Shown in pieces: positions 4,436-23,147 of a stretch of DNA of 40,637 nucleotides. The position numbers and the translations under genes are program-made. Within the stretch, counting starts at the first letter, position 1, and each line of letters begins with the position of its first letter. Below the pieces are notes generated by a model that worked only from the letters and a program-made list of their open reading frames with translations, had not been told where the DNA came from and did no database searches. Origin of the DNA: Bacteroidales bacterium (GTDB lineage: Bacteria; Bacteroidota; Bacteroidia; Bacteroidales; P3); contig JAGCUZ010000021.1 in NCBI GenBank assembly GCA_017962615.1, positions 1 through 40,637 on the forward strand, written 5' to 3'.

Positions 4436-5716
4436 CTATTCTACATTGATTATATAATAGTTCTTCTTGCCTTTCTGTATGAGGATGCATCCGCAGGGCA
4501 GCACGTCGCGGCTGCTGATGGTGCAGGCTTCGCCAACCTTGTTCTTGTTGACGGATATGGAGTTCTGCTTCAGCTCGCGGCGTATCTCGCCTTTCGAGGC
4601 GAACATGCCGGTCTCGGCGGCCAGGTCGATAAGGCTCACGCCGTCGCCCTCCAACTGTCCGCGGCTCACGTTGAACTGCGGCACGCCCTCGAACACGCTC
4701 AGCAGGGTGCCTTTGTCGAGGTTGCTCAGCTGCTCGGTGGTGCCTTTGCCGAAGAGGAGCTCCGAGGCAGCCACGGCGCCTTCGTATTCCTTTTCGCCGT
4801 GCACGCGGCAGGTGATGTCTTTTGCCAGGGCTTTCTGCAGTATGCGGCTCTCGGGACGCTGTGCGTGCTCCTGCTCCAGCGCCTCAATTTCTTCTTTGCT
4901 CAGGAGGGTGAAGATGCGTATGTATTTCACGGTGTCGACATCCGAGCAGTTGAGCCAGAACTGGTAGAACTTGTAGGGGCTGGTCTTCTTGGGGTCGAGC
5001 CACACGTTGCCGCCTTCGGTCTTGCCAAACTTGGTGCCGTCGGCTTTGGTGATGAGGGGGCAGGTGAGGGCGTAGGCCTCGCCGCCTTCCATGCGGCGTA
5101 TCAGCTCGGTGCCGGTGGTTATGTTGCCCCACTGGTCGGAGCCGCCCATCTGCAGGCGGCAGCCTTTGGTGCGGTAGAGGGTCAGGTAGTCGAAGCCTTG
5201 CAGCAGCTGGTAGCTGAACTCGGTGAACGAGATGCCGGTCTCCATGCGTTTCTGCACGGAGTCTTTGGCCATCATGTAGTTGACGGTGATGTGCTTGCCC
5301 ACGTCGCGTATGAAGTCGAGGAACAGGTAATCCTTCATCCAGTCGTAGTTGTTGACTATCTCGGCGCCGTTGACGGGGTTGTCGAAGTCGAGGAAGCGCG
5401 ACAGCTGCTGCCTGATGCAGTCAACGTTGTGCTGCACCTCTTCGATGGTGAGGAGCTTGCGCTCGGCGGCTTTGAACGAGGGGTCGCCTATCATGCCTGT
5501 GGCTCCGCCCACCAGCGCCAGAGGCTTGTGCCCGGCCATCTGCACGTGCTTGAGCAGCATGATCGACACGAGGTGCCCTATATGCAGCGAGTCGGCCGTG
5601 GGGTCGATGCCCACGTAGGCGGTGGTTACCTCTTTGTTGAGTTGTTCTTCGGTTCCGGGCATGATGTTGTGTATCATGCCGCGCCATTGCAGTTCCTTGA
5701 CGAGATTGGTATTCAT
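4436..5716 (-). CDS. tyrS: Tyrosyl-tRNA synthetase
   Basis: A 426-residue class I aminoacyl-tRNA synthetase charging tRNA-Tyr. The ATP-binding His-Ile-Gly-His motif is at 45-48, and the second signature appears as Lys-Phe-Gly-Lys-Thr (229-233), the TyrRS version of KMSKS. Gly-Gly-Ser-Asp-Gln-Trp-Gly-Asn (191-198) is the tyrosine-site region. A C-terminal S4-like RNA-binding domain (about 360-426) completes the bacterial architecture. Length is standard. It is first in a probable two-gene unit with the NhaC antiporter. No TAnnTTTG promoter is obvious in the AT-rich repeat upstream. Confidence 0.97.
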
Positions 5717-13584: not shown

Positions 13585-15081
13585 ATGGAAAAAATCATCC
13601 TAATTTGTTTTGTCCTATATACTTGTTTGCTGTTCGGGGTTACGTTGCTGACCTCGCGGAAGGCCAACAACGACGTGTTTTTCCGCGGAGGGCGCAAGTC
13701 GCCGTGGCCTGTTGTGGCCTACGGAATGGTGGGGGCGTCGCTGAGCGGCGTCACATTCATGTCGGTGCCGGGCGGCGTGTACTACGGAGGCTTCACCTAC
13801 ATGCCGCTGGTGTTCGGCTATGTGATAGGGTACGCTGTTATCGCGCTGTTGCTGCTGCCGTTGTATTACCGTCTGAAAGTCACGTCAATATACACCTACC
13901 TTGAACAGCGCTTCGGGCGCGACTCCGAGCGCACCGGCGCCATCTGCTTCATCGTTTCGAGGCTGCTGGGGTCGGCACTGCGCATGTACCTGGTGGTCTT
14001 TGTTTTATATGAGTTCGTCTTCAGGTCGTGGGGCATCCCGTTCTGGGTTCCGGCAATAGTCTTCATACTGCTGATACTGCTCTACACGTTTCGCGGCGGC
14101 ATCAAGACCATAGTGTGGACCGACACCCTGCAGACCACTTTCCTGCTGCTGGCGGCGGCGGTGACAGTGGTGGCCATACTGCGCAACCTCGACATCTCGA
14201 TGGGCGAGCTGCTGCGCAGGGCTTCCGAACAGGGCTACACGCGCATGTTTGAGACCGATGTGTCGCACAGTAAATACTACTGGAAACAGATTGTGGCGGG
14301 CGCGTTCATCACCATAACCATGACGGGCCTCGACCAAGACATGATGCAGAAGAACCTCACCTGCAGGTCGCTGCGTGCCGCTCAGAAGAACGTGATGACC
14401 TCGTCGATGCTGTTCATCGTGGTGAACATGCTGTTTCTGTGCCTCGGCGCCGCCCTCGTATACTATGCCGACGTGACGGGCTTCGCGCTCGAGGTTAATG
14501 CGGCCGGCAACGTGGTGGGTGACAAGATATTCCCGTCGATAGCCTTCTCGTTCAGCGGCTTCACGGCCGTGGTCTTCGTGCTGGGCATGGTGGCGGCGGG
14601 CTATTCGAGCGCCGACGGCACGCTCACGGCACTGACGACGACCTTCTGCTACGACTTCCTGCACTTCGACAAGAACGCCTCCGACGCCGACGAGCAGCGG
14701 CGTCAGGTGCGCACGCGTAAGTGGGTGCATGTTGGCTTTGCCATGCTCTACCTGCTGGTTATCATAGCCTTCAAGCCGTTCCACACGCAGTCGCTCATAG
14801 ACACGCTCTTCGACGTGGCGGGCTACACCTACGGGCCGCTGCTGGGCATGTACTCCTTCGGCCTCTTCACGCGCCGCAGCGTGGGGTGCAACGACAGGTG
14901 GGTGCCGCTGGTATGCATCGCCTGCCCGGTGATATGCTACGTGCTGAAGATGAATTCGGAACAATGGTTCAACGGGTTCCGGTTCGGCTTCGAGATACTG
15001 CTGCTCAACGGCCTGCTGACCTTCCTTGGGCTGCTGTTGCTGTCGCACAAGACCTGCGACGCGGAGCCTGCTGCAAATTAA
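13585..15081 (+). CDS. Sodium:solute symporter (SSS family)
   Basis: A 498-residue inner-membrane protein with about 13 hydrophobic helices. The N-terminal Phe-Phe-Arg-Gly-Gly-Arg-Lys-Ser-Pro-Trp and Gly-Ala-Ser-Leu-Ser-Gly-Val-Thr-Phe are typical of SSS carriers. The helix with Ala-Gly-Tyr-Ser-Ser-Ala-Asp-Gly-Thr-Leu-Thr-Ala holds the sodium-binding Ser/Thr residues of the LeuT-like fold. The solute is unknown; sequence cannot separate sugar, sialate and carboxylate members. rnz starts 30 bases after the stop, so the two genes are probably cotranscribed from 13551-13558. Confidence 0.9.
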   Translation: MEKIILICFVLYTCLLFGVTLLTSRKANNDVFFRGGRKSPWPVVAYGMVGASLSGVTFMSVPGGVYYGGFTYMPLVFGYVIGYAVIALLLLPLYYRLKVTSIYTYLEQRFGRDSERTGAICFIVSRLLGSALRMYLVVFVLYEFVFRSWGIPFWVPAIVFILLILLYTFRGGIKTIVWTDTLQTTFLLLAAAVTVVAILRNLDISMGELLRRASEQGYTRMFETDVSHSKYYWKQIVAGAFITITMTGLDQDMMQKNLTCRSLRAAQKNVMTSSMLFIVVNMLFLCLGAALVYYADVTGFALEVNAAGNVVGDKIFPSIAFSFSGFTAVVFVLGMVAAGYSSADGTLTALTTTFCYDFLHFDKNASDADEQRRQVRTRKWVHVGFAMLYLLVIIAFKPFHTQSLIDTLFDVAGYTYGPLLGMYSFGLFTRRSVGCNDRWVPLVCIACPVICYVLKMNSEQWFNGFRFGFEILLLNGLLTFLGLLLLSHKTCDAEPAAN

Positions 15082-15111
15082 TCGTTTACCAAAGCCAACT
15101 GTCACGACAAT

Positions 15112-16023
15112 ATGAACTTCCTGGTTACTCCTTTGGGCTGCGGGGCCGCCACGCCGGCGCTGGGTCGCCACTGCAGCAGTCAGATAATCAACATCGACGG
15201 CTTCAAGATAATGCTCGACTGCGGCGAGGGCACGCAGGAGCAGATACGCCGCTACCATCAAAGGATGCAGTCGATATCGACGATATTCATATCGCACCTG
15301 CACGGCGACCATATCTTCGGGCTGCCCGGGCTGCTGTCGTCGATGCACCTGTGCGGCCGCAAGGAACCCATCAACATCTTTGCGCCGAGCGGACTCAAGG
15401 CTGCGCTCGAGATGTTTCTCGACACCTCGTCGGTGCGGCTGCAGTACGAGATTGTGTTCCATGAACTTGAGGTGGAGGAGCCTACGGTGGTGTTCGACAA
15501 CCAGAAGTGCTGCGTAATTGCTTTCCCGCTCTACCACTCGGTGCCCACGATAGGCTACATGATAGAAGGACGCGAGCTGCGTCCCAGGCTGCGCCCGGGC
15601 GTGAAGCAGTCGCTGCAGCTTACCGACCAGGATATACAGAGTCTGATGGTGGGCAACGATTACACCGACGCTGAAGGCAATGTGCACAGTAATGCCGACC
15701 TGCTTGTGCCGCCCGGCGACGGCAAGCGGTACGCCTACTGCTGCGACACCGCCTACAACGAGGCTTTGCTTGACGTGCTCGAAGGGGTGGACCTGCTTTG
15801 CGTTGACAGCACCTTTGCCGAGGACATGGTGCAGATGGCCGCCGAGAAGCAGCACTGCACGGCCGGCCAGGCGGCGCTGCTGGCGCAGAAAGCCAACGCC
15901 AAGAAGTTGCTGCTCACCCATTTCAGCGCCCGCTACAAAGACCTCGGCGTGCTGCTCGGCGAGGCCCGCTCGCTTTTCGCAGAGACCTACCTCGCCGCCG
16001 AAGGCGAAATGGTGAAACTGTGA
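15112..16023 (+). CDS. rnz: Ribonuclease Z
   Basis: A 303-residue zinc endonuclease that removes 3' trailers from tRNA precursors. The metallo-beta-lactamase motif His62-x-His64-x-Asp66-His67 is intact. Further metal ligands are expected in the Tyr-Cys-Cys-Asp-Thr-Ala segment and the late Leu-Leu-Thr-His-Phe-Ser-Ala-Arg-Tyr motif, and Pro-Leu-Tyr-His-Ser matches the family. Length is usual for tRNase Z short form. tRNA-Pro in this window has no encoded CCA, so 3' trimming before CCA addition is needed. A hairpin terminator follows at 16066-16088. Confidence 0.94.
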   Translation: MNFLVTPLGCGAATPALGRHCSSQIINIDGFKIMLDCGEGTQEQIRRYHQRMQSISTIFISHLHGDHIFGLPGLLSSMHLCGRKEPINIFAPSGLKAALEMFLDTSSVRLQYEIVFHELEVEEPTVVFDNQKCCVIAFPLYHSVPTIGYMIEGRELRPRLRPGVKQSLQLTDQDIQSLMVGNDYTDAEGNVHSNADLLVPPGDGKRYAYCCDTAYNEALLDVLEGVDLLCVDSTFAEDMVQMAAEKQHCTAGQAALLAQKANAKKLLLTHFSARYKDLGVLLGEARSLFAETYLAAEGEMVKL

Positions 16024-16065
16024 AACTGCTTGTGACTTAGCCTAAAAGGCACGGTTTTCTTAGTG

Positions 16066-16088
16066 CTGGCAAAAATATTTTTTGCCAG
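16066..16088 (+). terminator. Hairpin terminator after rnz
   Basis: CTGGCAAAAA and its complement form a stem around a very short loop, with the T-run inside the 3' arm. It is 43 bases past the rnz stop and just upstream of the next promoter. Confidence 0.65.
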
Positions 16089-16103
16089 TTCGATTTTTAT
16101 TCG

Positions 16104-16111
16104 TAATTTTG
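16104..16111 (+). promoter_or_regulatory. -7 element of the structured RNA / CsgG-like operon
   Basis: TAATTTTG followed by CA. Transcription should begin near 16117, exactly at the base of the first hairpin. The next start codon is 300 bases further on, an unusually long leader if it is only a UTR. Confidence 0.7.
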
Positions 16112-16116
16112 CACTC

Positions 16117-16322
16117 GCAAACGGGGAGAAATCCGTTTGCCGAGAAAGCGCATTTTCGCTATATTCCTCGGATGTGAACTTCGACAACTCACAGAGTTAA
16201 TACAGGAATAATGGGAAGATGATTGCTCACGTTGATGTATATGTTACATCCAATGTGGAGCAATTCACAAGAACCTTTTATTATTGTATTACAGGGAGTC
16301 GAAGCCCTACATCCGAATAATA
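16117..16322 (+). ncRNA. Rod-like structured RNA, candidate 6S-type RNA
   Basis: The RNA starts with a perfect hairpin (16117-16124 with 16133-16140). A nested rod follows: 16169-16175 with 16309-16315; 16179-16185 with 16298-16304; 16207-16212 with 16280-16285; and a terminal hairpin from 16222-16228/16258-16264 extended inward by a second paired block. Between the second and third stems is a large asymmetric internal loop (16186-16206 / 16286-16297). One long rod with a central bubble is the shape of 6S RNA, which mimics an open promoter and binds RNA polymerase. Bacteroidales have a structured RNA class (Bacteroidales-1) linked to 6S RNA; assignment to it is inference. The 3' end is uncertain: no U-run is visible before the gene at 16424, so the RNA may also be the operon leader. 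Confidence 0.5.
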
Positions 16323-16423
16323 GGGTAGATGGATGGCTCCACTTTCTTCGTTGTTGGTCACTCTACGTCGAGCCTGCGTAAACGACAGTATTGAAATTAT
16401 TAACTTCAAAACAATATCAAACA

Positions 16424-16870
16424 ATGAAGAAACTGCTATTTTTCAGCATGATGTGCCTGATGGCACTGACGATGAGCGCCCAAAAATGCGCTGTTCTTGA
16501 CTTCCAGCTCGGCACCAACGTGACCGCCGAGGAGGTGGAAGCCATCTCCTACAACTTCCGCACCAATTTCTATCCGGCCAACTACAACGTGATAGAGATT
16601 GAGCGCGTAAACAAGGTTATAGACGGCTTCGACTATGACAAAACCAGCATGACAAAACAGCAGCTGACCGAGGTGGGCCGCAAGCTTGAGGCCAAGATTA
16701 TGGTGGTTGGCACACTTAACAAGTTTATGGACGAATACAGTGTTGATGTGCAGGTTATCGATGTCTCTACCGGCGTTACCATCGCATCCGAAGGCGACAC
16801 TTTCCAAAAGTCGGAGTACCGTCGAGAGATAAAGAACATCGCGCAGCGTCTTGTCTATAAAATAGAATAG
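16424..16870 (+). CDS. Small secreted CsgG/LpoB-like protein, paralogue 1
   Basis: A 148-residue protein with a signal peptide (1-19, ending Met-Ser-Ala-Gln). The mature chain starts Lys-Cys-Ala-Val-Leu-Asp-Phe, the first strand of the CsgG/LpoB/FlgO type alpha-beta fold. It continues with Asn-Phe-Arg-Thr (helix), Val-Ile-Glu-x-Glu-Arg-Val-Asn, Val-Gly-Arg-Lys-Leu-Glu-Ala, Val-Val-Gly-Thr-Leu, and Val-Gln-Val-Ile-Asp-Val-Ser-Thr-Gly. This order matches CsgG-like domains, which are periplasmic or outer-membrane-linked. CsgG itself has an extra pore segment and is longer, so a curli pore is not implied. ATG 16424 is chosen over TTG 16391 because the signal peptide begins there. Three related genes follow. 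Confidence 0.8.
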   Translation: MKKLLFFSMMCLMALTMSAQKCAVLDFQLGTNVTAEEVEAISYNFRTNFYPANYNVIEIERVNKVIDGFDYDKTSMTKQQLTEVGRKLEAKIMVVGTLNKFMDEYSVDVQVIDVSTGVTIASEGDTFQKSEYRREIKNIAQRLVYKIE

Positions 16871-16880
16871 GTGTAGAACC

Positions 16881-17330
16881 ATGAAAACAAAGTTGTTTTT
16901 TTTTGCTGCGCTCTGCATGGCCACTCTGACCGTGCAGGCGCAGAAATACGCTGTGCTTGAGTTCGAGACAGGCTCGAAGATCGACACAGAGGAGGCCGAG
17001 AACATCACCCACCTCTTCCTTACCAACTTCCATCCTGCGAGGTATAGCGAAATCGACCGCCAGCGTGTCAACAGCGCCATCAGCGAACTCGGCTTTCCTG
17101 CGACAGGCCTCGACCATCAGCAGCTCACCAAGCTCGGTCGCATGCTGGAGGCGTCGTTCATAGTGGTAGGCTCCATGAGCGAGAAGTCGGGCGAATACAG
17201 CGTTGACGTGCAGGCTATCGACATCTCCACCGGCACCACTGTTGCCACCGCAGGCGATACCTTCAAGAAATCCAAATGCCGCAAAAAAGTCATATCAATA
17301 GCCGGCAAGCTGGCCGGGAAAATAAAATAG
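16881..17330 (+). CDS. Small secreted CsgG/LpoB-like protein, paralogue 2
   Basis: A 149-residue protein, signal peptide 1-21 (ending Val-Gln-Ala-Gln). It is colinear with paralogue 1 and shares Ala-Val-Leu-(Asp/Glu)-Phe, the Arg-Val-Asn segment, Leu-Gly-Arg-x-Leu-Glu-Ala, Val-Val-Gly-Ser, Glu-Tyr-Ser-Val-Asp-Val-Gln, Asp-Ile-Ser-Thr-Gly and the closing Gly-Asp-Thr-Phe-x-Lys-Ser block. It is the most diverged of the four (Lys-Tyr instead of Lys-Cys at the mature start). It begins 10 bases after the preceding stop, so cotranslation or at least cotranscription is likely. It has no lipobox. Confidence 0.78.
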   Translation: MKTKLFFFAALCMATLTVQAQKYAVLEFETGSKIDTEEAENITHLFLTNFHPARYSEIDRQRVNSAISELGFPATGLDHQQLTKLGRMLEASFIVVGSMSEKSGEYSVDVQAIDISTGTTVATAGDTFKKSKCRKKVISIAGKLAGKIK

Positions 17331-17337
17331 TCATGAG

Positions 17338-18258
17338 ATGAAAAAAACAATCTTAATCATTGCCATGTTTGTGGCAGCCTTTGCCGCGCAGGCACAGAGA
17401 TGCGTGGTGCTCAACTTCCAGATTGGTGACAATGTTACAGCAGAGGAGGTTGAGGCGGTATCTTATGAATTCCGTTCCACGTTCAATCCCTCATGCTACA
17501 CTGTCGAGGAAAAGTTCAAGGTGAACCGAGTGCTTAGCGACCTTGGCTTCAATGCCACCGCCATGAGCAAAGAACAGATACGCAAGCTTGGACGTGAGAT
17601 GACGGCCACCGTAGTTGTCCATGGCTCCTTGAGCAAGTATATGGATGAATACACTTTGGATGTCAATGTGATGGATGTTTCTACGGGCACCACCAGTGTC
17701 AACAAAAACGAGACCTTCCAGAAGTCCGAATACCGTGCTCGCACGCGGGCGGTGTCGCAAGGTATAGTCACGAATTTGTGCAATTCCTCGTCAGCTGCTT
17801 CTACTTCGAGTGCTAGTTATAGTTATGGTTCCACTGCGGCGAAGCCAGCTGTACCGGCGGGCTACACCGACCTCGGATTACCAAGCGGCACATTGTGGAA
17901 AAACTTCAACGCCACAGGCTTCTACACCTACGATGAGGCCGTTTCGCAGTTTGGCAAGCGCCTCCCGACAAAAGAGCAGTGGGAGGAGTTGAAAGCCGAG
18001 TGCCAGTGGAGTTGGACCGGCAATGGCTACAAGGTCACAGGTCTTAATGGCAATTCCATCACGCTGCCCGCCTCGAGCTGGCGCGATTGCAGCGGAAGCG
18101 TCCTCCTCGTGGTCGTGGGGTCCAACGGCCGCTATTGGTCCTCCACGCCCAGTGGCTCAGACGACGCGTGGTACCTCTACTTCCTTTCGGACGGAGTGAG
18201 TATGTACAATTGGAGCCGTTGCAAAGGCTTCTCCGTCCGGCTTGTCTACCATCAATAA
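17338..18258 (+). CDS. CsgG/LpoB-like protein, paralogue 3, fused to a FISUMP/DUF1566-type C-lectin-like domain
   Basis: A 306-residue protein with signal peptide 1-19 (ending Ala-Gln-Ala-Gln). Residues about 20-148 are the family domain (Val-Val-Leu-Asn-Phe, Val-Thr-Ala-Glu-Glu-Val-Glu-Ala, Asp-Val-Ser-Thr-Gly-Thr, Phe-Gln-Lys-Ser-Glu-Tyr-Arg). A Ser/Ala-rich linker (about 149-175) leads to a C-terminal module starting Asp-Leu-Gly-Leu-Pro-Ser-Gly-Thr-Leu-Trp, with Leu-Pro-Thr-Lys-Glu-Gln-Trp-Glu-Glu-Leu, Arg-Tyr-Trp-Ser-Ser-Thr and Gly-Phe-Ser-Val-Arg-Leu-Val. That is the FISUMP/DUF1566 pattern, a C-type-lectin-like fold often found in surface binding proteins. It starts 7 bases after paralogue 2. 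No reverse transcriptase or template repeat for a diversity-generating element was seen nearby. Confidence 0.78.
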   Translation: MKKTILIIAMFVAAFAAQAQRCVVLNFQIGDNVTAEEVEAVSYEFRSTFNPSCYTVEEKFKVNRVLSDLGFNATAMSKEQIRKLGREMTATVVVHGSLSKYMDEYTLDVNVMDVSTGTTSVNKNETFQKSEYRARTRAVSQGIVTNLCNSSSAASTSSASYSYGSTAAKPAVPAGYTDLGLPSGTLWKNFNATGFYTYDEAVSQFGKRLPTKEQWEELKAECQWSWTGNGYKVTGLNGNSITLPASSWRDCSGSVLLVVVGSNGRYWSSTPSGSDDAWYLYFLSDGVSMYNWSRCKGFSVRLVYHQ

Positions 18259-18298
18259 TTGTACACATTAGAGCTCAATCACAAGGCATTCTTTTATT

Positions 18299-18363
18299 GG
18301 TCAGGATGTCCGCTCGTCAAGCTCGCGGGGCATACCACGGGCCTTTGGTCCGACAGCCTGACC
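18299..18363 (+). other. Intercistronic inverted repeat between paralogues 3 and 4
   Basis: GGTCAGG (18299-18305) and CCTGACC (18357-18363) bracket a GC-rich 51-base interior. The 131-base gap is far longer than the other gaps in the operon (10 and 7 bases). It could attenuate or process the transcript; there is no U-run. Confidence 0.35.
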
Positions 18364-18389
18364 TGCAAAAAATCAAAAAAACAAATACA

Positions 18390-18902
18390 ATGAAGAAAAT
18401 AGGTTTTATTTCAGTTGTTTTGCTTATGGCATTATGCCTGTCGTCATGTTGTGCTCGACGTGCCGAAGTTTCGGGCACTTCCAACGGTTCGGGCAGTACA
18501 CATGGTTCAATCAAAGGGAAATGTGCCGTGTTGGATTTCCAGACGGGTACAAACGTGACAGCCGAGGAGGCTGAGGCCATCACCTACAATTTCCGCACGG
18601 GCTTCTATCCGTCGTGCTATAAAGTGATTGAGGCGGCCCGCGTCAATAGTGCTGTCGATGCACTTGGTTACAGCAAGACTTGCATGACGAAAGAGCAGTT
18701 GTGTGAGGTGGGGCGCAAGTTGGAGGCCAACTTGGTTGTGGTTGGTACAGTGAACAAACTTATGGACGAGTACAGTGTCGACGTCCAGGTTGTCAACGTC
18801 TCCAAGGGAACCACTGTGGCCTCGCAGGGCGACACCTTCCAAAAGTCCAACTATCGCACCGGTGCAAAATCCATTGCGCAGAAACTCGCCAATAAGCTGT
18901 AA
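18390..18902 (+). CDS. CsgG/LpoB-like lipoprotein, paralogue 4
   Basis: A 170-residue protein and the only lipoprotein form of the family here: Leu-Ser-Ser-Cys (residues 17-20) fits a signal-peptidase II site, followed by a Ser/Gly-rich tether (about 28-41). The domain then starts Lys-Cys-Ala-Val-Leu-Asp-Phe and tracks paralogue 1 closely (Thr-Asn-Val-Thr-Ala-Glu-Glu, Asn-Phe-Arg-Thr, Met-Thr-Lys-Glu-Gln-Leu, Val-Gly-Arg-Lys-Leu-Glu-Ala, Met-Asp-Glu-Tyr-Ser-Val-Asp-Val-Gln-Val). ATG 18390 is chosen by the signal peptide; longer in-frame upstream sequence overlaps paralogue 3 and is not credible. LpoB, the E. coli activator of PBP1b, is also a lipoprotein with this fold. Confidence 0.8.
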   Translation: MKKIGFISVVLLMALCLSSCCARRAEVSGTSNGSGSTHGSIKGKCAVLDFQTGTNVTAEEAEAITYNFRTGFYPSCYKVIEAARVNSAVDALGYSKTCMTKEQLCEVGRKLEANLVVVGTVNKLMDEYSVDVQVVNVSKGTTVASQGDTFQKSNYRTGAKSIAQKLANKL

Positions 18903-18956
18903 AAACAGTATGCGCGGCGCAGCGCGCACGGCCAATGCCATAGGCATTACGAAAAG

Positions 18957-18988
18957 AAAAGCCCGTTCCTGTAAAGGGAACGGGCTTT
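18957..18988 (+). terminator. Terminator of the CsgG-like operon
   Basis: AAAAGCCCGTTCC / GGAACGGGCTTT stem with a seven-base loop, ending in TTT. Two smaller perfect hairpins precede it: TGCGCG/CGCGCA (18910-18927) and AATGCC/GGCATT (18934-18948). Confidence 0.75.
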
Positions 18989-19010
18989 GTTGTGTGTAGC
19001 TTTGCGAGCC

Positions 19011-19346
19011 TTAAAGGACTGCGGCCACTCGGCGGGTAAACAGCGACTCTCGGCGGCTGTTCTGCTGCCGCTCTACCTCGCGCTGGGCTATGACAAGGCA
19101 ATCGTGCTCGTAATGGAATTGCCTGCGCATCCAGAAATCATAAGGGATGCCTAACTCTTTTTCCAATGCCATTGCAATGGGAACGGTGAAACTGCGCTTG
19201 CCCTTTATCAGCTCGTTCATATGGCTTGGCAGAATGCCAATCTTTGCGGCGAGGTCTTTCTGCTTTATTCCGCGTTCTTTCAACTCCTCGTTGAGGGTCT
19301 CGCCTGGATGTACCGCGCGGAAGCCTGTAATTCTATCTCCGTCCAT
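19011..19346 (-). CDS. higA: HigA-family antitoxin (XRE helix-turn-helix)
   Basis: A 111-residue DNA-binding antitoxin. The N-terminal His-Pro-Gly-Glu-Thr-Leu motif is the hallmark of HigA/VapI-type proteins. The helix-turn-helix runs Ile-Lys-Gln-Lys-Asp-Leu-Ala-Ala-Lys-Ile-Gly to Met-Asn-Glu-Leu-Ile-Lys-Gly-Lys-Arg, and Ala-Leu-Glu-Lys-Glu-Leu-Gly-Ile-Pro follows. The start is placed at ATG 19344-19346, overlapping the toxin stop by 14 bases; the longer frame reaching 19418 would run deep inside the toxin gene. HigA neutralises HigB and represses the pair. The gene is more AT-rich than its neighbours, which suggests transfer. Confidence 0.85.
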   Translation of the reverse strand: MDGDRITGFRAVHPGETLNEELKERGIKQKDLAAKIGILPSHMNELIKGKRSFTVPIAMALEKELGIPYDFWMRRQFHYEHDCLVIAQREVERQQNSRRESLFTRRVAAVL

Positions 19347-19647
19347 AGTGTGTATCGTCCATTTCGATGATTGATATTTCAATACCGTCATTGTATTCTC
19401 GGAACAGCAATCTCTCAACCCTGCCGTTCATCACTCTCACGGAACTCATTCCTACTTTTTTCAACCGCTCATAATGCATATAACTCAACAATCGGAGGTC
19501 TGAGGTTTTTGCAACATCACGCATATCGTCATATACGCGGTCAAGAGCTGTGAGAAACTTGCTGTCTCGCTCGTATTTCTTGTATTTTCTGCTTTTGTGC
19601 TTTAATACAAGCTGTTCTAATTCAGTGTCTTCAAATGTTACGTTCAT
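19333..19647 (-). CDS. higB: HigB-family toxin (RelE-like mRNA interferase)
   Basis: A 104-residue basic protein of the RelE/HigB fold, expected to cleave mRNA on the ribosome. The N-terminal Asn-Val-Thr-Phe-Glu-Asp strand, the Leu-x-x-Leu helix with Lys-Tyr-x-Lys-Tyr, the strand Ser-Ser-Val-Arg-Val-Met-Asn-Gly-Arg-Val-Glu-Arg-Leu-Leu-Phe-Arg, and the final Met-Asp-Asp-Thr-His-Tyr-Gly are all in HigB order. Toxin before antitoxin is the usual higBA arrangement. ATG 19645-19647 is preferred to ATG 19657-19659 because the -7 element (19662-19669) places transcription start near 19655, inside or past the first ATG; the chimeric relative at 39636 also begins at this Met. Confidence 0.85.
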   Translation of the reverse strand: MNVTFEDTELEQLVLKHKSRKYKKYERDSKFLTALDRVYDDMRDVAKTSDLRLLSYMHYERLKKVGMSSVRVMNGRVERLLFREYNDGIEISIIEMDDTHYGRR

Positions 19648-19661
19648 TGCGTTTGTCATTG

Positions 19662-19669
19662 CAAATATA
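19662..19669 (-). promoter_or_regulatory. -7 element of higBA
   Basis: TATATTTG on the minus strand, followed by CA. Predicted leader is about 8 bases. Confidence 0.65.
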
Positions 19670-19675
19670 CAAAAT

Positions 19676-19695
19676 AATTCTAAATTATGGGAATT
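19676..19695. promoter_or_regulatory. Possible HigA operator
   Basis: AATTC and GAATT half-sites are separated by 10 bases and lie where the -33 region of the higBA promoter should be. This is where an autorepressor would bind. Short arms make this tentative. Confidence 0.3.
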
Positions 19696-19748
19696 TTTTG
19701 CTCTGTAATCGAAAAACGCTGCTATATCAAGAAAAATGTGTAAATTTG

Positions 19749-19756
19749 TACCTTTG
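19749..19756 (+). promoter_or_regulatory. -7 element of secA
   Basis: TACCTTTG; expected transcription start near 19763 and a leader of about 97 bases. Confidence 0.65.
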
Positions 19757-19859
19757 TAGTCACAATGCGTGAAGTGCGCAATTGGTTGTGCACGAGACGT
19801 ATTGATATGACTGCGATATTAACAATTTGTCTTTAATATATTAAAACAACATTCACTAT

Positions 19860-23147
<3,288 letters not shown>

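Follow-up and report, generated by a model that had tools for sequence, protein, structure and literature searches.

The window analysed here, the whole 40,637-nucleotide stretch of contig JAGCUZ010000021.1 (positions 1 to 40,637, forward strand) in the Bacteroidales bacterium assembly GCA_017962615.1, holds a row of four genes at 16424-18902 that encode paralogous FlgO/CsgG-like envelope proteins, the third of which ends in a lectin-like domain with the adenine-restricted variation of diversity-generating retroelement (DGR) targets. The assembly (G000), from an uncultured gut bacterium, comprises 2.0 Mb in 71 contigs and is 67% complete. The genes, and the two domains of gene 3, are as follows.

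16424..16870, plus strand: gene 1, secreted FlgO/CsgG-like paralogue of 148 amino acids (FlgO, PF17680, 27.5 bits, cut-off 22.6)
16881..17330, plus strand: gene 2, divergent secreted FlgO/CsgG-like paralogue of 149 amino acids (FlgO 25.1 bits, above the cut-off)
17338..18258, plus strand: gene 3, FlgO-like domain, Ser/Ala-rich linker and C-terminal lectin-like variable domain (by paralogy)
about 17338-17790, plus strand: FlgO-like domain of gene 3 (35-47% identity to genes 1, 2 and 4)
17860-18258, plus strand: putative FISUMP/C-type-lectin-like variable domain of gene 3 (by homology to a DGR target protein of G161, a related genome)
18390..18902, plus strand: gene 4, FlgO/CsgG-like lipoprotein paralogue of 170 amino acids with a Ser/Gly tether (lipobox LSSC, by eye)

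A four-gene set built on one domain

The four open reading frames (ORFs) are those described in an earlier sequence-only reading as adjacent secreted paralogues. The four are paralogues well beyond chance: the matches of gene 3 to genes 1, 4 and 2 have E-values of 2e-40, 1e-36 and 8e-28 (identity 47, 46 and 35%), and gene 1 shares 49% identity with gene 2, 46% with gene 3 and 67% with gene 4. The gaps along the set are 10, 7 and 131 bp; the first two had been given correctly, and the third, before gene 4, had been left unstated.

Profile searches assign the approximately 125 residues common to all four proteins to the FlgO/CsgG/LpoB type, as that reading had proposed. FlgO is above the cut-off in genes 1 and 2, just below it in gene 4 (21.7 bits), and unlisted for gene 3. 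The proposed comparison with the CsgG and LpoB profiles gave a mixed outcome: both stay below their cut-offs in all window genes, with LpoB (PF13036) at 16.0 bits in gene 4, while LpoB exceeds its cut-off in one fusion protein of a relative, G162 (27.4 against 22.3 bits). Known oligomers occur among the FlgO, CsgG and LpoB families. A CsgG-type secretion pore was rejected, since the gene 1 match to CsgG (PF03783) is a fragment of the profile (38 of 210 positions) and below the cut-off (12.3 against 20.8 bits).

Leaders and lipoboxes were assessed by eye, and at that level the anchoring proposed earlier is borne out: genes 1-3 have signal-peptidase-I-like leaders with Ala-x-Ala-like ends, and the gene 4 leader has Leu-Ser-Ser-Cys followed by a Ser/Gly-rich stretch.

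Adenine-restricted variation in the lectin-like domain of gene 3

The lectin-like domain that the sequence-only reading added to gene 3 is real; its probable descent from a DGR variable domain had been missed. The domain matches FISUMP/Fib_succ_major and Lcl_C, in each case below the cut-off, and its variable repeat (VR) is C-terminal, as in DGR targets. Three features mark this end of the gene.

18073..18243, plus strand: VR-like region, the part alignable to the template repeat of G161 (adenine-biased mismatches)
18231..18246, plus strand: 3' end of the VR resembling an initiation of mutagenic homing (IMH) site, a 16-mer identical in five unlinked lectin-domain genes of G000
18257..18280, plus strand: decayed copy of a 24-bp inverted repeat seen after related VRs (5 of 8 arm pairs)

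A search with the inferred template pattern reached contig C77 of G161, another species of the genus. This contig encodes a reverse transcriptase (RT), an accessory protein that matches the Avd model NF033474 below the cut-off (E=7e-4), and a target protein with a homologue of the gene 3 lectin domain, and it also carries a template repeat; 15 of 18 mismatches between its own template and VR are at template adenines. Scored at codon positions 1 and 2, the VR of gene 3 differs from the G161 template at 23 of 41 adenines and at 6 of 69 other bases (p=8.4e-8). The domain's upstream half served as a control; set against the G161 gene, it gives 5/45 and 10/91 (p=0.6). The bias was present in 13 of 13 genes tested, including the target of G161 itself (p from 1e-13 to 2.2e-4), and in none of 12 upstream-half controls (p 0.18-0.85).

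The C-terminal domain of gene 3 has relatives at four unlinked places in G000. Judged by eye, their N-termini are quite different: one is just a leader, and the others belong to a zinc-ribbon/membrane protein, to a lipoprotein, and, on C47, to a larger protein, as if the genes were a dispersed set of DGR targets served in trans.

L012, 1411-1893: lectin-domain relative in G000
L013, 1351-1896: lectin-domain relative in G000
L014, 1363-1920: lectin-domain relative in G000
L018 (C47): lectin-domain relative in G000

The 16-mer near the end of the domain has five exact copies in G000, in all five copies of the domain, against none for the reversed control; when up to two mismatches are allowed there are eight copies against four. 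No exact copy was found in the 68 other genus genomes searched, and an extended 22-base form with up to two mismatches is present in 12 of 120 genus genomes. Two of the other G000 genes, C57 and C65, show DGR-type divergence from each other, with differences at 21 of 44 template-adenine sites and at 3 of 121 other sites (p=1.3e-11). Their third codon positions differ at 2 of 58 sites in the VR and at 32 of 69 upstream (p=1.2e-8). Because the VRs are near-identical at third positions and the upstream regions are not, the VRs appear to have been overwritten from a common template, a trace from which we infer that a DGR has acted in the lineage. The C47 copy, having no clean frame, was left out of the adenine-bias counts.

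Among 20 distinct flanks that follow VRs, that of gene 3 included, 13 have at least seven of eight arm pairs of the 24-bp inverted repeat in register. The 16-mer and the inverted repeat of the kin of gene 3 are reminiscent of a DGR target site, by analogy with phage BPP-1, for which PMC3240598 describes that efficient retrohoming requires the 24 bp immediately 3' of the VR, where inverted repeats form a hairpin or cruciform. In G043 (L093, about 5243-5266), the inner part of the inverted repeat is reverse-complemented relative to the other copies, as if the hairpin had flipped.

FlgO-like proteins as DGR targets in related genomes

FlgO-like genes fused to FGE-type domains adjoin a DGR RT in three relatives, G039, G038, and G162. 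In G039 the gene order is a secreted FlgO-like protein (a), a lipoprotein (b), and a FlgO-FGE fusion (c), followed by an accessory ORF and the RT, which match Pfam HRDC and RVT_1, respectively. The 3' end of this RT overlaps the template, and all 16 mismatches over the 121 bp of template and VR are at template adenines. The target in G038 is also a FlgO-FGE fusion (17/17 mismatches at template adenines), with a second FlgO-like gene adjoining. G162 has a single template for VRs in two tandem FlgO-FGE fusions, with 17/17 and 16/16 mismatches at template adenines.

L184, 3289-3420, 4974-5104 and 6548-6679: template repeat and two variable repeats of G162

Thus in each of the three genomes an RT, an HRDC-like accessory, a template, and VR mismatches confined to adenines occur together with FlgO-like targets; the same kind of scaffold is fused to confirmed DGR targets. 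The motifs GxxxSQ and YxDD, which we take to be those of DGR RTs, are present in all four RTs checked (G039, G038, G161, and G162). Across the genus, 14 loci have an adenine-biased template/VR pair, with an RT seen at 13 (L147 unchecked). The targets are FlgO-like at three (G038, G039, G162), phage-type at five (by eye), and short lectin-domain proteins without FlgO at two; at the remaining four (L133, L139, L104, L147) the ORF chosen was uninformative, which leaves the targets unclassified.

Several further arrangements of the scaffold were observed. G055 has five tandem FlgO-like genes (L187, 4242-10562), three with FGE-type domains and two with other C-terminal domains; the frames of two FGE copies are apparently disrupted. 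Upstream of the FlgO-like genes of G038, two ORFs (L132, 8542-9917) resemble by eye LPP20/FlgP-type lipoproteins, presumably recalling the FlgO-FlgP pairing. Proteins at L095 (4585-5136) and L109 (713-1255) pass from the first approximately 35 FlgO-like residues straight into the lectin domain, and may be remnants of a fusion or deletion.

Of 120 genus genomes, profile A1 (E<=1e-8) finds FlgO-like genes in 18 and profile A6 (E<=1e-10) in 24, or 28 combined; at most about 30 candidates per genome were scored, so these counts may miss some. Homology of the two profiles is supported by hhalign (probability 99.1). When their match lists are combined, 12 of the 120 genomes, G000 included, have two or more FlgO-like matches that lie within about 3 kb and occupy separate frames, so the tandem recurs beyond the window, as the sequence-only reading would require; separate frames were told by listed lengths, and six of the twelve genomes are known from the A6 list alone. 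Among 393 genomes drawn from the order, with at most nine candidates scored in each, three match A1 at E<=1e-12: G000, G086 (weakly), and G337, from another family of the order, which has a FlgO-FISUMP fusion (L201, 6150-7469). The scaffold form is therefore rare outside the genus in this sample, yet present. Nine relatives matched with alignment A2 are assemblies of uncultured Bacteroidales, Bacteroidia, or Bacteroidaceae, three of them from ruminant gut sites (roe deer rumen, sheep rectum, goat omasum).

Gene 1 is 80% identical to protein a of G039 and to its counterpart in L190, where the order is as in G039 (secreted, lipoprotein, lectin-bearing); the window differs in having the order secreted, secreted, lectin-bearing, lipoprotein. 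In the tree, seven sequences fall into one set (97/97), namely gene 1, G039 a, L190 a, genes 2 and 4, G039 b, and L190 b. Gene 1 is closest by path to G039 a and L190 a, the branch to gene 2 is long, and gene 4 shows a weak grouping (85/65) with the two lipoproteins, G039 b and L190 b; the lectin-bearing G039 c and L190 c form a pair (82/84). These groupings suggest that the secreted and lipoprotein types predate the species, and give no such support for gene 3. The recurring trio of secreted, lipoprotein, and lectin-bearing proteins in the window, G039, and L190 is compatible with a joint complex, without being proof of assembly.

A phage origin of the operon was rejected: alignment A2 of the FlgO-like domain has no relatives in viral contigs, and flanking genes such as SecA look chromosomal by eye. 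The lectin domain, unlike the scaffold, does have relatives on viral contigs. A 235-kb viral contig encodes a 770-amino acid protein (L266, 4069-6381) whose terminal domain is 52% identical to the lectin domain of gene 3. On 34 viral contigs (L232-L265), RTs are 34-48% identical to that of G161. The G161 accessory model matches an ORF on 26 of the 34, and FISUMP-like matches are present on many, so phages may share this DGR type. Between genes 3 and 4 there is a dispersed repeat of approximately 31 bp (18308-18339), with 90-94% identical copies on C63, C26, and C32 (L006, L007, L008), all in unrelated surroundings. An Rfam scan of 15900-19900 gave no matches.

Origin and possible role of the variable head

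The account that best fits these observations, to which we give a probability of roughly 0.78, is that the operon encodes an envelope protein set on one FlgO/CsgG/LpoB-type domain, and that the head of gene 3 is a DGR variable domain by origin. Genes 1 and 2 would provide soluble subunits, gene 4 a membrane-anchored lipoprotein, and gene 3 a displayed C-type-lectin-like binding head, the variable codons of which would have arisen as adenine-specific mutagenic retrohoming rewrote template codons of Asn type (AAY). Rewriting at template adenines would re-draw the ligand-binding face and leave the scaffold constant. The paralogues may co-assemble, hetero-oligomerisation of the four being plausible, in which case the gene 4 lipoprotein could tether the assembly to the outer membrane and the gene 3 head could bind glycans or other ligands outside the cell. 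The sequence-only reading is confirmed in what it observed and partly supported in how it interpreted the operon.

A number of points weigh against this account. The lectin fold of gene 3 is predicted from sub-threshold profiles and from homology to the G161 target, and PDB profile searches gave no credible match for it. The template used for gene 3 is that of another species, so some divergence at non-adenine sites is expected. Neither an RVT_1 match nor, by template searches, a template repeat was found in the G000 assembly. Only three of the 18 A1-profile genomes were found to have an RT close to a FlgO-like gene, in stretches of mostly about 5 kb a side; the RT models were built from one or three DGR RTs, inspection excluded 10 genomes matched by A6 alone, and the second place in G124 (L126) had a repeat-pair scan only. 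In the tree, gene 3 is outside the pair of lectin-bearing proteins from G039 and L190, on a long branch beside the set of seven (87/74). The surface exposure proposed for the head was not borne out by eye: the lipoproteins show no acidic surface-export signal, and no anchor is visible in the secreted members. Gene 3 has only five of eight arm pairs in the hairpin expected of a DGR target, next to an intact IMH-like 16-mer, and its VR shows only weak homogenisation with three other G000 copies, from which it differs at 16, 16, and 20 of 58 third positions, against 32, 33, and 32 of 68 upstream, a contrast with p=0.03 for C57.

Several of these points agree with the view that gene 3 is a retired target, its lectin domain having been diversified earlier or copied from a variable gene and now fixed as a constant binding head, a view that falls only a little short of even odds. 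The decay of the hairpin (fold energy -0.8 kcal/mol against -15.2 kcal/mol for the C57 copy), a two-codon insertion within the VR, altered residues after it, the weak homogenisation, and the lack of both RT and template in the assembly favour retirement. However, the 16-mer is still intact, two other G000 VRs look rewritten from one template, and an assembly that is only 67% complete may be missing the RT. With its hairpin decayed, gene 3 is not classed as an active DGR target. Because retirement describes the present state of gene 3, it is compatible with the DGR origin of its head.

A less probable alternative, with perhaps one chance in several, is that the paralogues are LpoB/FlgO-like envelope regulators that touch a wall synthase or a surface appendage, that the head binds peptidoglycan or glycan, and that diversification is incidental. 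The FlgO matches of genes 1 and 2 and the LpoB match of the G162 fusion are in its favour, but inspection by eye of the ORFs at 14000-22000 revealed neither a partner synthase nor a flagellar gene, the secreted members have no visible anchors, and the fact that DGRs target this kind of scaffold in three genomes favours variable binding over a constant partner. The view that no retroelement was involved, and that these are ordinary paralogous lectin domains shaped by positive selection or by recombination among the many FISUMP-like copies in the genus, draws on the lack of an RT in the assembly and is strongly disfavoured by the adenine restriction against a template that adjoins an RT in G161, by the few changes outside template adenines between C57 and C65, and by the IMH-like end and hairpin shared among copies.

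Much of the system is already known. Human-microbiome DGRs, as presented in passages of PMC4159848, have target domains of the FISUMP (Fib_succ_major/DUF1566) or FGE-sulfatase families, the same two families of C-terminal variable domain as here, and one target, a predicted lipoprotein, joins an Mfa2 domain to Fib_succ_major; the N-terminal scaffold differs here in being of FlgO/CsgG/LpoB type with tandem paralogues. The tip pilins of Bacteroides type V pili are diversified by DGRs (cited in the review PMC12632263). As in those tips, the part rewritten here is likely the ligand-binding part of an envelope component; the scaffold is different, and the assembly here is a putative one. For Treponema denticola, passages of PMC4891356 describe FGE-type targets, an HRDC accessory gene, targets remote from the RT, and target remnants in strains without a complete DGR, all of which have likenesses here; a FlgO-like scaffold is not mentioned in those passages. 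Modular targets with mostly unannotated N-termini are also known, and in one survey 71% of the sequences from the 24 main clusters of DGR targets lack any recognised domain beyond the variable region (PMC8144416). In the open-licence PMC literature, with the hyphenated spelling, no paper was found to pair diversity-generating retroelements with CsgG; among the 12 listed of 117 papers that combine any two of DGRs, FlgO, LpoB, TolB, curli, and Fib_succ_major, PMC4159848 alone mentions DGRs, together with Fib_succ_major.

The proteins share the approximately 125-residue domain of the FlgO (PF17680), CsgG (PF03783), and LpoB (PF13036) families, some members being above the FlgO or LpoB cut-off, and differ from those families in their fusion to a variable lectin-type domain and in their tandem multiplication. 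The FlgO/CsgG/LpoB scaffold and the tandem operon with several kinds of anchor are, as far as these searches go, what is new; the mutation engine is ordinary.

It is tentatively suggested, at odds well below even, that the operon specifies a hetero-oligomeric envelope receptor of CsgG/LpoB fold with a DGR-hypermutated lectin head on one type of subunit, giving each cell lineage many copies of one newly evolved specificity, with modularity through tandem duplication of the scaffold and exchange of FISUMP and FGE domains. Pairings of FlgO-like envelope proteins with a head of the DGR-rewritten kind are recurrent in related species and could provide these with an evolvable receptor. A named scaffold from an oligomer-forming family, arranged in tandem and at times beside DGRs, offers a concrete hypothesis for the display of hypermutated lectins in Bacteroidales.

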